DNA of 64,000 nt from contig SCRM01000008.1 in assembly GCA_004298045.1 (NCBI GenBank), positions 1 to 64,000 of the forward strand, in the 5' to 3' direction. Origin of the DNA: Rhodanobacter sp. GTDB lineage: Bacteria; Pseudomonadota; Gammaproteobacteria; Xanthomonadales; Rhodanobacteraceae. The notes under the pieces are model-generated. The model was not told the DNA's origin. It worked only from the letters and a program-made list of their open reading frames with translations, and made no database searches. The first letter of the stretch is position 1. Every line of letters begins with the position of its first letter. Below, one piece after another: positions 25,225 to 61,190 of the stretch. A program made the position numbers and the translations under genes.

Positions 25225-25340
25225 CAGCGCCCCCCAGCCGGCAAGGCGCAAAACCGCAGGAATCGAGGCATGAAACGTTCTCCGCAAGGTTCAGCGAGAA
25301 CGTCCCAAGGCTGAGGCCGACACGCTCGCGCGCGTCGAGC

Positions 25341-25574
25341 CGTCTTCTTTTTTCCGGACTGTGGGCCGCCTCACCATCGAAGCAGCTTGACCGTCGGCTC
25401 CGGCATCTAACCGGATCTGCTGACCCTTCGCTACGGCGAAGGCGCTCGCGGGCTCGCTCCCGGAACATGACGCCGGAAACACCGGTGCGGCACGATTGCC
25501 GCCGCCTGTGTTTCCACCGCCCATGCCTCAAGAGCCTACCGCCGGTGGGGAATTTCGCCCCGCCCTGAAGACGC
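25341..25574 (-). promoter_or_regulatory. FMN riboswitch (RFN element)
   Basis: Read on the minus strand, the region shows the conserved RFN segments in order: GCGTCTTC, GGGGCGAAATTCCCCACC, CGGCGGTAGG, GAGCCCGCGAGCG, GGTCAGCAGATCCGGT, AGATGCCGGAGCCGACGGT, AGTCCGG and GAAGACG. The first and last form stem P1. The P2 arm is extended by a large side stem (arms GGAAACAC and GTGTTTCC). FMN binding normally lowers expression of the downstream riboflavin genes. The region 25275-25302 can form a separate hairpin that may be part of the expression platform, but it lacks a strong T-run, so translational control is as likely as termination. Confidence 0.92.
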
Positions 25575-25685
25575 TTGCCGGCGAACCGGCCTGCGCAGCT
25601 TAGCACGCCGGCACCGCGCCCCATGCCGCCCCGATGCACGCCAGCGCGTTACGGCATCATGGGCATCCACGCCAAGGAGTTCCCC

Positions 25686-56526: not shown

Positions 56527-57141
56527 TCAGCGCAACAGCGGCTGCAGCAGCGGCCACACGTTGTCCAGCACCTTCGGCTCGCCTGCCGCCGTGGGGTGCA
56601 GGCCGTCGGGCTGCATCAGGGCCGGATCGAGCGCCACGCCTTCAAGCAAGAAAGGCAGCAGTGCCGCGTGTTTTTCCCGCGCCAGGTCGGCATAGACCGC
56701 GCGCAGGCCATCGCGATACTGCGGGCCGTAGTTGAGTGGCAGCTCGATGCCGAGCAGCAACACCTTGGCGTGAGTGGCCTGCGCCGCACTGACCATCGCG
56801 GTGAGGTTGTCGCGCAGCTGGTCGAGCGGCAGGCCGCGCAGGCCGTCGTTCGCCCCCAGCTCGATCACCACCACCTGCGGGCGATAGGTAGCAAGCAGCG
56901 CCGGCAGGCGATTGCGTCCGGACAGCGAGGTCTCGCCGCTGATGCTGGCATTGACCACCGTCCATCCCGGCCCCATCTTCGCCAATCGGGCCTGAAGCAA
57001 ATGCACCCAGCCCTGGTCGACGGCAATGTTGTGCGCAGCCGACAGCGAATCGCCCAGCACCAGCACCGTCCGCGCGCCCGCGGCCTGCACGCCAAAGGCC
57101 CCGCCCGCCAGCCACAGCAACACGATCAGGAACCGACGCAT
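56527..57141 (-). CDS. tesA: Multifunctional acyl-CoA thioesterase/lysophospholipase/arylesterase TesA
   Basis: A 204-residue SGNH-fold hydrolase of the periplasm. Signal peptide 1-20, then block I with the nucleophile (GDSLS), block III (GANDG) and block V (DGLHP) with the catalytic Asp and His. It hydrolyses acyl-CoAs, lysophospholipids and esters. The E. coli gene is also divergent from ybbA. Here the two start codons overlap by two bases, with GGAGG ten bases upstream of the tesA ATG inside the ybbA coding region. Confidence 0.95.
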   Translation of the reverse strand: MRRFLIVLLWLAGGAFGVQAAGARTVLVLGDSLSAAHNIAVDQGWVHLLQARLAKMGPGWTVVNASISGETSLSGRNRLPALLATYRPQVVVIELGANDGLRGLPLDQLRDNLTAMVSAAQATHAKVLLLGIELPLNYGPQYRDGLRAVYADLAREKHAALLPFLLEGVALDPALMQPDGLHPTAAGEPKVLDNVWPLLQPLLR

Positions 57142-57841
57142 GCGCGACACGCCTCCAGCCATTCTCGAAGCCCGTGATGTTAGCAAGTCGGTGATCGGCC
57201 CCGAGGGCCCCCTGGCGATACTCGAAGATGTGAGCCTGTGCGTTGCGGCCGGGGAAAGCTTCGCCATCGTTGGCGCATCGGGCTCGGGCAAGACCACGCT
57301 GCTTGGCCTGCTCGCGGGGCTCGATACGCCCAGCAGCGGCCACGTGCGGCTTGCCGGCCACGCGCTGGAAACGCTGGATGAAGAAGCGCGTGCCGACCTG
57401 CGGCGCGAGCTGGTCGGTTTCGTGTTCCAGTCGTTCCATCTGCTGCCCGCACTTTCGGCCGAAGAAAACGTGATGCTGCCACTGGAACTTGCGGGCGATG
57501 CGCAGGCGCGGCGCAAGGCCCGCGATGCGCTTGCCGCCGTCGGGCTCGATGCACGTCGGCGACATTACCCAGCGCAGCTTTCCGGCGGCGAACAGCAGCG
57601 CGTGGCCATTGCACGTGCGTTCGTGCACGCGCCACGCGTGTTGTTTGCCGACGAACCCACCGGCAACCTGGATCAGCGCACCGGCCACCACATCGCCGAC
57701 CTCCTGTTTGCGCTCAATCGCGACCACCACACCACGCTGGTGATGGTCACCCACGACAGCCAGCTCGCCGCGCGCTGCGCACGGCACATCGAGCTGCACG
57801 AAGGCCGCGTGGTGGAAACCGCGGCGACGGTCGGCGCATGA
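57140..57841 (+). CDS. ybbA: ABC transporter ATPase, LolD/YbbA type
   Basis: A 233-residue ATPase. Walker A is [10 protein letters not shown], the signature [12 protein letters not shown], and Walker [12 protein letters not shown]. The type belongs to MacB/LolD-like transporters whose permeases act on lipids or peptides in the inner membrane. The partner permease (58704-61190) matches YbbP, but 862 bases with a structured repeat lie between them, unlike the tight operon in E. coli. ATG 57140 has AGGA nine bases upstream; it shares two bases with the tesA start codon on the other strand. Confidence 0.9.
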
Positions 57842-57995: not shown

Positions 57996-58595
57996 ATCAG
58001 AGCGGTTTCGAACGCCCTGCGGGCGTCTGAGCTACTTTTCTCTGAATGGCCAGAGAAAAGTAGCCAAAAGAGAAGCCACCCCGATGGCGCGCCCTCCGGG
58101 CATCCTGCCCTCCGGGTGCGCGGGTGGGCTGCGGGGTTTTCCGACGGCACATCCCTGTGCCGGCGGAAAACTGGCCCGCCTCCGTGCGGGCCATCCTGCG
58201 GACTACCCGCCGCCCACCCGCCGCGCCATAGGGGCCCCACAAGGGCAGGCGTGCGTCCGCGCGCCCAAAGCAGAACAGCCGCGCACCACCAGTTGCGGGA
58301 GGGGCGATGCTTTGGCTTCTTCTGGCGCGCACGACGCGCGCCGCTCTTCCTGGGGCCCCTCGGCGGCGGTGAGGCGGGGTCGGAAAAGCCCGCAGGGGCG
58401 AGGCCAGGGATGGCCTCGCCTTTTCGTGCGGGCAGGAGCCCGCTCGAAAAGCCCGGCCCCGCCTCACGCACTTTTTGCCCACGGATGGGCAAAAAGCGCC
58501 GCCGCGGGGTGCCGTTTTCTCTTGGCTACTTCTCTTTTGGGCAAGCAAAAGAGAAGTAGCTCGCGCGCCCGCAGGGCGCACGAAACCGCCCTGAT
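57996..58595. repeat. 600-bp structured element with terminal inverted repeats and hairpins
   Basis: The ends form imperfect inverted repeats of 42 bases (36 identical), both starting ATCAGRGCGGTTTCG. Inside each end is a hairpin of 13 or 14 bp with an 8-base loop (58031-58064; 58525-58560). Between them are perfect or near-perfect hairpins at 58137-58170 (15 bp, one mismatch), 58172-58193, 58397-58420 (10 bp, loop GGGA), 58428-58443 and 58471-58496 (11 bp, loop CGGA), plus a long-range pair at 58230-58239 and 58351-58360. Frames are open on both strands because of GC symmetry, but none looks like protein. A partial inverted copy lies at 1-117. Confidence 0.85.
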
Positions 58596-58703: not shown

Positions 58704-61190
58704 ATGAACCTCATGCGCTTGTCCCTGCGCAACCTGCGCCGCGAATGGCGGCTCCCGGAACTGCGCACGCTGGCCGGGTCGCTGCTGTTGGCCGTACTGG
58801 CGCTGGGCATCGTCGCCACGCTGGCGGCACGGGTGGAGAACGGCATCCTGGCCAGCGCGGCGGAGCTGATCGGCGGCGACATCGGCATCTCGGCCCCGCA
58901 GGCGCTGCCGGCGACGTTCGCCGAACAGGCACAGCGTGACCAGCTTGCCACCAGCCGCGCCGCCGGTTTCCCCAGTGTGGCGTTTGCCGGTGAGCGCAGT
59001 CAGCTCCTCGATGTGCAGGCGGTCGACGCGGCGTGGCCATTGCGCGGCAAGCTCGCACTGGCGGATGCGCACGGCGCCACGCGCATCGGCCATGGTCCGG
59101 CGCCCGGCAGCGTGTATCTCGACCATCGTGCACTGGTGGCACTGGGGCTTGGGGTGGGTGATGACGTGCAGCTTGGCGGCCGCACCCTGCGCATCGCTGC
59201 GCGGATCGTGCAGCAGCCCGACGGCGGTACCCTTGTCGCCCTCGCGCCGCGCGCACTGATGAACCTTGCCGATGCGCAGGACGCCGGCCTGCTCGGCGTC
59301 GGCAGCCGCGCCACGCATCGCCTGTTGCTGGCGGGCGCGCCGGACGAGGTACGCGCATGGCGCACCTGGGCACAGCGGCAGACCTTGCCGCAGGGCGCCG
59401 AGCTGATCACGCCCGAGCGCACGCGGGAGCGCATGCGCAGCGCGTTCGAACGCGCCGGTACATTCCTGCACCTGACCGCCTTGCTCGCCGCGTTGCTGGC
59501 CGGCGTGGCGATCGCCCTCTCGGCGCAGCGCTACGCGCGGCGCAAGACGCCGGAGGTCGCGCTGCTGCGCGCGCTGGGCACCTCGCGCCGGCGCACGCTG
59601 GGGCTGCTGCTGGGCACACTCGCGATACTCGCGCTGCCAGTCACGGCACTGGCCGTGCTGGTCACGCTGGCGGTCGGGCAGCTCGCATGGCGGTTTGCCG
59701 GCAGTTTGTTCGGTGCGCTGCCCACTGTGCTGCCGGTGTGGCCGGCGCTCGGCGCCGCAGCCATGGCGCTGGCGGTGCTCGCCGGCTTTGCGCTGCCGCC
59801 ACTGCTGCGGCTGGCCGAAGTGCCGCCGGTGGCGGTGTTCCGCGCCAGCGCGGTGCGCCGCGTGCGCCGCTTCGATGCGTTGTATCTGCTGCCGGCCGCG
59901 GTCGCGGTCGGCCTCATCTGGAGCCAGAGTGATTCACTCAAGCTGGCGCTGATCCTCAGCATCAGCCTGCTCGGCGTCGCCGTGGCGGCAGCCGCGTTGG
60001 CAATCGCGCTGCTGTGGCTGACGCGGCGTGTGGCACCCGGCGCGCACCCCGCGCTGCGGCTGGGCCTGGCGGCGCTCGCACGCCGCCGCGCCCTGAGCGT
60101 GATCCAGGCCACCGCGCTCAGCCTGGGCCTCACCGCGTTGCTGGTGCTGGCCGTGGTGGCCCCGGCGTTGCTCGACGGCTGGCGCCGCGAGCTGCCGCCC
60201 GATACCCCAAACTGGTTTGCGCTGAACCTGCAGGACACCCAGCGCGACGCGTTCACCCAGGCCGTGGCACACCTCGGTGGCGGGCACCTCAACATGATGC
60301 CGTTGGCCGTCGGCAAGTTGGTCGCGATCAACGGCGTGGCGGTTGACCAGCTGCAGCTTGCCGACCCACGTGCCCACGAGTGGGCGGATCGCCAGCTGCG
60401 GCTGTCGTGGGCGGCCGCGCTGCCGCCGGCCAACCGCGTGCTGGCGGGCCACTGGTTCGATATCAACCCACGGCAAGCCGAGGTATCGGTGGACCGCACC
60501 TGGCGCGACCTGTTTGCGCTCAAGCTCGGCGACCGCATGCGCTTCGACGTCGGCGAAGGCAGCCTCGACGCCACGGTGACGAGCTTTCGCGACGTCGACT
60601 GGAGCTCGTTCCGGGTCAATTTCTTCCTGCTGCTCGACCCACGGCACGCCGTGCGCCTGCCGCACACCTGGCTGGCGAGTTTCCATCTGGACCGTGGCCA
60701 CGCGCCGGCGATGGCGCGGCTGGCGCGCGACTACCCGAACCTCAGCCTGGTCGATGTCGACGACGTGCTCGATCGCATCCGCGGCATCATCGGCCGTGTC
60801 GGCGGCGCGGTGCGCTGGATCCTCGGTTTCAGCCTGCTTGCCGGTGCGCTGGTGCTGGCCGCGGCGCTGGCCGCCAGTGCCGCGGAACGCCGGCACGAAG
60901 CGGCCTTGCTGCGCACCTTGGGCGCGCGCCGCGCGCAACTGCGCATCGCCGCCGGTTGCGAGTTTGCGCTGCTCGGCCTGATCGCCGGCAGCACCGCTGC
61001 GCTCGGCGCCGCCGGTGCCGGGCTGTGGCTGGGTCGCGCGCTGTTCCATATCGAAGGTTTCGTGTCACCGCTCGCACCGCTCGCGCTCGGCGCCCTGGGT
61101 TGCGCCGTTGCGGTGATGCTGTTCGGCCTGCTCGGCACGCGCAAGGTCACCCGCACGCCACCGATGCAGCTGCTGCGCGAAAACGGATAG
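58704..61190 (+). CDS. ybbP: ABC transporter permease, FtsX-like, YbbP type
   Basis: An 828-residue membrane protein with two FtsX-type units. The first helix (LLLAVLALGIVATLAARVENG) is followed by a large periplasmic domain, then three helices around 265-375 with the RYARRKTPEVALLRALG coupling helix. The second half has further helices and a similar motif (ERRHEAALLRTLGARRAQ). YbbA/YbbP-type transporters are thought to export or extract lipids or secondary metabolites; the substrate is unknown. ATG 58704 begins MNLMRLSLRNLRREWR. It is 109 bases after the structured element. Confidence 0.9.
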   Translation: MNLMRLSLRNLRREWRLPELRTLAGSLLLAVLALGIVATLAARVENGILASAAELIGGDIGISAPQALPATFAEQAQRDQLATSRAAGFPSVAFAGERSQLLDVQAVDAAWPLRGKLALADAHGATRIGHGPAPGSVYLDHRALVALGLGVGDDVQLGGRTLRIAARIVQQPDGGTLVALAPRALMNLADAQDAGLLGVGSRATHRLLLAGAPDEVRAWRTWAQRQTLPQGAELITPERTRERMRSAFERAGTFLHLTALLAALLAGVAIALSAQRYARRKTPEVALLRALGTSRRRTLGLLLGTLAILALPVTALAVLVTLAVGQLAWRFAGSLFGALPTVLPVWPALGAAAMALAVLAGFALPPLLRLAEVPPVAVFRASAVRRVRRFDALYLLPAAVAVGLIWSQSDSLKLALILSISLLGVAVAAAALAIALLWLTRRVAPGAHPALRLGLAALARRRALSVIQATALSLGLTALLVLAVVAPALLDGWRRELPPDTPNWFALNLQDTQRDAFTQAVAHLGGGHLNMMPLAVGKLVAINGVAVDQLQLADPRAHEWADRQLRLSWAAALPPANRVLAGHWFDINPRQAEVSVDRTWRDLFALKLGDRMRFDVGEGSLDATVTSFRDVDWSSFRVNFFLLLDPRHAVRLPHTWLASFHLDRGHAPAMARLARDYPNLSLVDVDDVLDRIRGIIGRVGGAVRWILGFSLLAGALVLAAALAASAAERRHEAALLRTLGARRAQLRIAAGCEFALLGLIAGSTAALGAAGAGLWLGRALFHIEGFVSPLAPLALGALGCAVAVMLFGLLGTRKVTRTPPMQLLRENG

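Follow-up and report, generated by a model that had tools for sequence, protein, structure and literature searches.

A dispersed palindromic repeat of Rhodanobacter with predicted triplex-pseudoknot ends and outward-facing A(N)GGA hairpins

The closest described relatives of the element studied here are the triplex-forming repeats PIT, BoxC and TM_ECO and the decoy RNAs of the RsmX/Y/Z type, neither of which it fully matches. PIT, BoxC and TM_ECO are dispersed intergenic repeats in which a single DNA strand supplies the third strand and both strands of the stem, the triplex being of class II on one strand and of class IV on its complement, and they sometimes occur as inverted pairs (accessible sections of PMC4666352). 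BoxC, 5'-CCCTCNCCCN3-6GGGNGAGGGN3GGGNGAGGG, spans about 37 nt and is a purine motif rich in G and C (Holder et al. 2015, PMC4666352, same sections), and the word pseudoknot is absent from that paper. Decoys such as RsmX/Y/Z, RsmW and those of the CsrB type likewise carry several hairpins with A(N)GGA loops, and the preferred target of CsrA is a short hairpin that exposes an unpaired ANGGA (accessible part of PMC7366521). RsmU of Xanthomonas campestris also possesses GGA motifs and is an RsmA-binding RNA cut from the 3'-UTR of an mRNA (PMC7694677, as excerpted). MITEs and REP/BIME sequences are non-coding inverted-repeat elements with many intergenic copies (excerpts of PMC10969869, PMC2817692 and PMC3733652), the latter being defined by a palindrome of 20-40 bp with a GTAG or CGTC tag (PMC3733652, same excerpt).

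In this study, we analyzed a window of 64,000 nt from Rhodanobacter sp. (assembly GCA_004298045.1, contig SCRM01000008.1, positions 1 to 64,000), in which a 600-bp element lies at 57996-58595. At slightly less than even confidence, we interpret it from sequence comparison as one copy of a palindromic repeat that is dispersed, lacks a transposase, and would act as RNA, be capped by triplexes and bind CsrA in hosts possessing CsrA. The literature searched, outside which lie most subscription papers and the 2000 PIT survey, contained no description of the element; that survey, which dealt with PIT in H. influenzae (Hoyne 2000), may include some of these ends.

The element has no strand of its own. 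Compared with itself, it matches its reverse complement over the full 600 bp at 67% identity, and we take it to be two inverted half-units flanking a variable centre. A preliminary description, made from the letters of the window, had reported inverted terminal repeats, and these are borne out as arms of 46 nt that are 85% complementary in repeat and hairpin analysis, each including a small terminal hairpin (57996-58041 on the forward strand and 58550-58595 on the reverse strand). The further strong hairpins that it had listed were recovered (58388-58429, 58468-58499 and others), as was its long-range pairing, in which AGGGGCCCCA at 58230-58239 is complementary to TGGGGCCCCT at 58351-58360. 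This pair frames the centre (58230-58360, no strand), where the enclosed spacer differs between copies and, in the long units of some relatives, contains a gene or an IS; no conserved promoter was found in the variable centre of the copies. The impression of more than random structure also holds, since the predicted folding energy of the forward strand is -421.5 kcal/mol against -288.7 kcal/mol for shuffled sequences (z -16.0), the reverse strand gives z -15.4, and on either strand none of 100 shuffles folded as well as the element. The nested minimum-energy fold of the full-length RNA joins both ends together, which counts against the RNA reading favored here. Open reading frames cross the element in several frames; we rejected a protein gene, in agreement with the earlier view, because the similarity of whole units is at the DNA level and the compensating changes in the stems are unexpected for a coding frame. 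The self-palindromy goes beyond what had been described, as do the triplex-pseudoknot ends and outward-strand GGA loops presented below and the similarity past the borders, which among some other copies continues 37-85 bp outside those of the window copy. Elsewhere in the window, one end of a second copy lies at the contig edge (1-114; the window starts within that copy), and an FMN riboswitch (Rfam, 77.7 bits) occupies 25338-25576 on the reverse strand.

Read outward, each half was predicted to end in an H-type pseudoknot, the first loop of which lies as a pyrimidine third strand on the stem of the end hairpin. The order on the outward strand is S1a, third strand, GG, S2a, S1b (in the loop) and S2b, with 8-9 triples of the types T.A-T and C.G-C per end. 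The hairpin that had been placed just inside each end is present and constitutes S2, with a loop of 6 nt and not the 8 nt given earlier. At the left end, where the outward strand is the reverse strand, S2 (14 bp; hairpin analysis and end alignment) spans 58031-58064, the third strand TCTCTTTT at 58066-58073 forms 8 parallel Hoogsteen triples (end alignment), and S1 (58047-58078) pairs 58075-58078 with the loop positions 58047-58050 (TGGC/GCCA on the reverse strand). The right end lies on the forward strand: S1 (58510-58543) pairs TGCC at 58510-58513 with the loop GGCA at 58540-58543, the third strand TTTTCTCTT at 58515-58523 forms 9 parallel Hoogsteen triples with 58547-58555, and S2 (15 bp; hairpin analysis and covariation) spans 58525-58560.

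This fold of the ends is strongly supported by the variation among copies. Our end alignment comprised 57 of 64 true same-genus ends, the window contributing three, out of 66 distinct pattern hits of which 2 were false; the seven true ends omitted include degenerate ones, and the collecting pattern misses worse ends. A perfect third strand of 8 or 9 bases against S2b, in the parallel Hoogsteen register, was present in 48 of the 57 aligned ends and in six stem types. Thirty-two of these 48 fall in five asymmetric stem types, which matter because they tell mirror from direct repeats. The observed match was reached in none of 20000 permutations (14 types), and sliding the third strand by 1-3 positions gave 34-55% match compared with 88% in register. 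S1 was fully paired in 54 of the 57 ends, with four sequence types. Together, S2, S1 and the small terminal hairpin were 97.1% paired, with double changes at 14 of 24 pairs, against 41-52% pairing in slid controls, and the half-units were 97.7% and 98.8% paired in copy alignments. S1, third-strand loop and S2 of an H-type pseudoknot triple helix are thus all found, with covariation in three strands. The earlier suggestion of a large structured RNA, put forward beside a mobile element and a nucleoid or recombination site, gains partial support, in that the copies do vary with compensating changes in their stems.

Replacing the mirror by a direct repeat gave 75% identity against 88% in the same alignment, in which a gap shifts the shorter stem type, and was rejected. 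Judged from these alignments, the third strand is a mirror of the stem, neither its copy nor its complement. Neither direct repetition nor repair of palindromes would yield covariation in mirror register, and we are aware of no form of duplication or template switching that generates mirror copies. Some variants deserve mention. About 70 bp of extra sequence lies inside the end-hairpin loop at the right end of copy L057 and at both ends of copy L088. An inverted stem pair occurs in L125 (1288-1372, reverse strand) and L099 (1501-1592), where the third strand has G facing T-A and C facing C-G; the triad G.T-A is known from pyrimidine triplexes. The terminal hairpin region in ends of family f16 (e.g., L112, L124 and L178) allows two overlapping, mutually exclusive hairpins. 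The left half-units of same-genus copies carry GGAGGAAAGTCCG adjoining CAGGATGG, a pair missing from the window copy; it is reminiscent of a conserved RNase P RNA motif, presumably by chance. An H-type pseudoknot triple helix is also present in telomerase RNA. The SAM-V riboswitch contains one as well (accessible part of PMC6061858). Those are regulatory or enzyme RNAs, whereas here the fold makes up the ends of a dispersed repeat, with 8-9 consecutive triples.

Mismatches in S2 carry a strand polarity. Among 77 distinct distant ends, they were distributed on the outward strand as G.T 30, A.C 2 and other 9, in a set that may be biased because it was retrieved with a model scoring G-U and that includes a few mis-registered or BoxC hits. 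The excess of G.T points to an outward strand that works single-stranded, as RNA or ssDNA. The wobble signal outside S2 is weak, the half-units of the genus having G.U 37 versus A.C 27 (pairs common to both strands), and we dropped wobble asymmetry over the whole element as a test for RNA. Stems outside S2 appear almost purely Watson-Crick, which is equally consistent with DNA-level forces.

In the host genome (22 contigs), 26 pieces match the element, spread over about 12 places, some of which may be pieces of one copy because six contig ends lie within copies. Matches to the element were present in 34 of 61 genomes (the host's own and 60 relatives) and in 14 of 15 within the genus. When 398 genomes sampled from the phylum were searched with a covariance model of the end, scoring no more than 10 candidates in each, 47 genomes from 17 families had matches. 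Many distant ends retain the fold with new S1, S2 and third-strand sequences; their list was thresholded at 6 or more triples and an S1 of 3 or more, and therefore gives no rate, and a few of its members are mis-registered or BoxC. Outward-facing pairs of ends occurred at 21 of 89 loci scanned, most of them 262-806 bp apart from stem to stem. In the stretches fetched from one genome (G246), both ends were present in 9 of 11 elements, with 626-733 bp between outer edges. Unpaired ends exist too, five of nine further stretches from the genus having one end only (E up to 1).

A pattern scan yielded at least 118 stretches, 80 of them listed. The hosts among the matches listed were Burkholderiales, Dyella, Rhodanobacter, Lysobacter, Luteimonas, Pseudomonas, Methylobacter, Thiobacillus, Polaromonas, Acidovorax and others, together with Bacteroidota, Selenomonadales and Clostridia. 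In the resulting pattern-selected set of 63 distinct ends from the listed matches, up to 5 of which come from viral contigs, the free third-strand base agreed with the stem base in 63 of 63 (T/T 34, C/C 29, off-diagonal 0), and S1 reached at least 4 bp in 51, compared with a mean of 23 and a maximum of 31 when loops were swapped (300 trials). S1 is 6 bp long in Parafilimonas and Filimonas, 3-4 bp in Selenomonadales and weak (1-3 bp) in Mucilaginibacter, Segetibacter, a Bacteroidetes MAG and the Clostridia MAG; we are less sure of such weak-S1 ends outside Pseudomonadota. A blastn search with the window element returned no plasmid copy and no phage copy. Copy L112 of family f16 matched 7 plasmid records (best in Comamonas and Variovorax; the other five over less than 70 nt), and none of the phage records searched matched another f16 copy, L184.

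The window copy lies between genes for an ABC transporter ATPase (57140-57841, forward strand; PF00005) and an FtsX-type ABC permease (58704-61190, forward strand; PF02687). In 8 of 14 same-genus genomes, the element is absent and the two ORFs overlap by 4 nt; the element is therefore an insertion, since it splits an operon whose genes overlap in these relatives. Six genomes, including the host's, have it between the two genes. The genes are 811-913 bp apart in four of these filled loci, the stretch examined in the other two has no ATPase gene, and one filled locus has the element in the opposite orientation. Extra flank of the order of 100 bp accompanies the filled site on each side, several with BoxC-like repeats. 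The flanks of four copies (L078, L086, L087 and L066) hold inverted BoxC/TM_ECO-like CCCTCTCCC repeats, which makes a nested set of the triplex type. One relative possesses two copies that are 97% identical across 810 bp, extending about 85 bp beyond each unit end. The idea of a non-autonomous mobile element put forward earlier is upheld as far as dispersed copies and filled and empty sites are concerned, and the copies are presumably mobile; the comparison of filled with empty sites revealed no clean target-site duplication at the ATPase/FtsX site, nor did the 810-bp copy pair.

No autonomous parent emerged among the long units examined, those of 1.4-5.2 kb in two genomes (G010 and G012) differing in content and having no single transposase. 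The contents of these five units vary (an IS110-type gene, IS30-like genes, a DUF5343 gene, an unmatched 171-aa ORF), and no transposase is common to them. The IS110-type and IS30-like genes within or between half-units look like later insertions (transposase genes in L218 3480-4559, L219 2012-3076 and L220 1759-2823; Pfam for the first two). L217 (1499-3564) and L216 (1541-3302) have half-units at both ends and a central gene, which is DUF5343 in one and the 171-aa ORF, with no Pfam match, in the other. Among the 32 of 34 same-genus copies for which our own ORF caller predicted both neighbours, the neighbours are tandem in 21, convergent in 10 and divergent in 1, and in 31 copies at least one of the two genes reads towards the copy. 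Avoidance of divergent pairs was discarded, 1 of 32 being not clearly lower than a baseline of 13-21% (p 0.05-0.30, depending on the baseline).

A(N)GGA hairpins sit upstream of the triplex end, nearly all on the outward strand. In the window copy, a hairpin scan identified CAGGGATG (58397-58420), GCAGGAGC (58428-58443) and CACGGATG (58471-58496) on the forward strand and GCACGGAGGC (58172-58193) and CACAGGGATGTG (58145-58162) on the reverse strand; a further reverse-strand hairpin, GGGCAGGATGCCC (58098-58110), is evident from sequence and alignment and has a 5-bp stem, under the 6-bp cut of the scan. Counted over 32 of 36 copies with this cut, 259 outward hairpins had GGA in or beside the loop in 171 cases, 14 of which are S2 loops, and TCC in 3, against 21 GGA and 23 TCC among 338 hairpins of control flanks. 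Each half carries on average 2.7 GGA hairpins on the outward strand, S2 loops included. Loops such as CANGGATG are kept while the stems vary.

CsrA was found in 14 of 15 genomes of the host genus. Among genomes taken from the listed pattern-scan matches (49 of 50 loci searched, 44 of the 49 assessed), A(N)GGA hairpins were present in 20 of 23 with CsrA and in none of 21 without it; a Selenomonadales MAG in this set has both CsrA and the hairpins. In a second set of element-bearing genomes, 32 of 41 being usable, the figures were 11 of 20 and 0 of 12; the two sets overlap by at least one genome (Pseudomonas sp. ML96; G442, L309). In the samples examined, the predicted hairpins are thus restricted to CsrA-bearing hosts. 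The association is confounded with clade, because the CsrA-lacking hosts of the pattern-scan set are, judged by record title and with the exception of one MAG, Betaproteobacteria or Bacteroidota, and clade accounts for part of it. CsrA binding cannot be the core function, since 9 of 20 CsrA-bearing genomes of the second set lack an A(N)GGA hairpin; the triplex ends are the core, since they persist where these hairpins are absent.

The element has multiple GGA loops on the presumed RNA strand, as decoy sRNAs do, and it differs from the RsmX/Y/Z type in being multicopy and palindromic, in its terminal triplex pseudoknot and in having no Csr/Rsm family above cut-off. At gathering level, Rfam gave no match in the element, the FMN riboswitch being the only one in the window. 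RsmW scored weakly on the element in a low-threshold scan (31.2 bits, E 0.003; cut-off 52). We rejected a known RNA family, the low-threshold list of 15 being probably mostly chance. Neither RsmZ nor RsmW exceeded its cut-off in any of 15 genus genomes, RsmZ appearing below it in 4 and controls being equally silent for RsmW. RsmU, compared by description, differs in being a single locus, reported in Xanthomonas only and with no triplex end described (as far as the excerpt of PMC7694677 goes). As in PIT/BoxC repeats, at least 8 triads lie on one strand, 8-9 of them perfect in the 48 ends mentioned above. In contrast to the BoxC consensus, the third strands are T-rich (e.g., TTTTCTCTT and TTTCTTTT); the element has a pyrimidine motif and paired ends, its pseudoknot comprises about 4-6 bp, and its units measure 0.3-0.8 kb.

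How the repeat works can be read in other ways. It may be an RNA 3'-end element, a bidirectional terminator or stability element in which the triplex alone is functional and CsrA has no role, a reading that we regard as rather doubtful. The persistence of triplex ends without A(N)GGA loops and the position of 31 of 32 same-genus copies downstream of a gene speak for it, but it does not account for the strong GGA bias of the outward strand with stems that vary, the window copy has no T-run after its end hairpins, and the related PIT repeats are reported to lack terminator activity (PMC4666352, accessible sections, citing Hoyne and Maher 2002). A main rival, albeit an unlikely one in our judgment, is a MITE-like or REP/BIME-like mobile element acting at the DNA level, whose triplex hairpins would be ssDNA ends for a transposase or replication protein encoded elsewhere and whose GGA hairpins would be secondary. 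Like MITEs, the element has terminal inverted repeats, many copies and no coding gene; dispersal, filled and empty sites, the 97% identical 810-bp pair and stems nearly without G.U all fit, and the G.T pairs of S2 might mark recognition of ssDNA. Against this, neither a parent transposase nor a target duplication such as MITEs have was found, no partner transposase with the same ends occurring in the five long units and no clean duplication being readable. With a unit of about 600 bp, it is also much larger and more structured than the 20-40 bp REPs (PMC3733652, as excerpted). Mobility at the DNA level does not predict A(N)GGA loops limited to CsrA hosts, and it is compatible with action as RNA.

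A functionless by-product, in which template switching (quasipalindrome correction) keeps the palindromes perfect and recombination spreads them, seems to us most improbable. Its stems would be nearly perfect Watson-Crick with few wobbles and mismatches, as observed, but the third strand follows the stem in mirror register and loop motifs stay constant while stems change. Template switching gives complements, not mirror copies. An intrastrand triplex that arrests DNA polymerase and promotes genome rearrangement, as proposed for BoxC/PIT, is improbable as well. The strand topology is that of class II/IV intrastrand triplexes (PMC4666352, accessible sections) and several copies are flanked by BoxC-like repeats, yet a T-rich pyrimidine motif with a conserved pseudoknot is unlike the G-rich purine motif of BoxC, and the GGA loops and the CsrA pattern are left unexplained.

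In the interpretation that we favor, an RNA-acting, triplex-capped repeat, transcription entering from a neighbouring gene would run across the element, the far half would fold, and its triplex would close and shield the 3' side. In hosts with CsrA/RsmA, the A(N)GGA hairpins would bind the protein as a decoy or as a stabilising partner, and the inverted layout would let the mechanism work from either direction. It is possible, as a tentative extension, that these repeats form an unrecognised class of structured RNA in at least Pseudomonadota and likely also in Bacteroidota/Bacillota, with inverted pairs and triplex caps, to which CsrA hairpins are added in CsrA hosts.

Three-strand covariation of a long triple helix is unusual, and its recurrence in many bacterial families makes triplex biology testable in ordinary bacteria. 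A 3' triple helix protects some eukaryotic and viral RNAs, and the present ends raise the question of whether RNA is protected in this way in bacteria. To our knowledge, RsmA antagonists are poorly known in the host lineage. If the GGA hairpins bind CsrA, repeats that are readily dismissed as intergenic clutter would belong to a global network of post-transcriptional control, and genomes with dozens of copies would run a distributed, mobile network of CsrA decoys in the 3' regions of their mRNAs.
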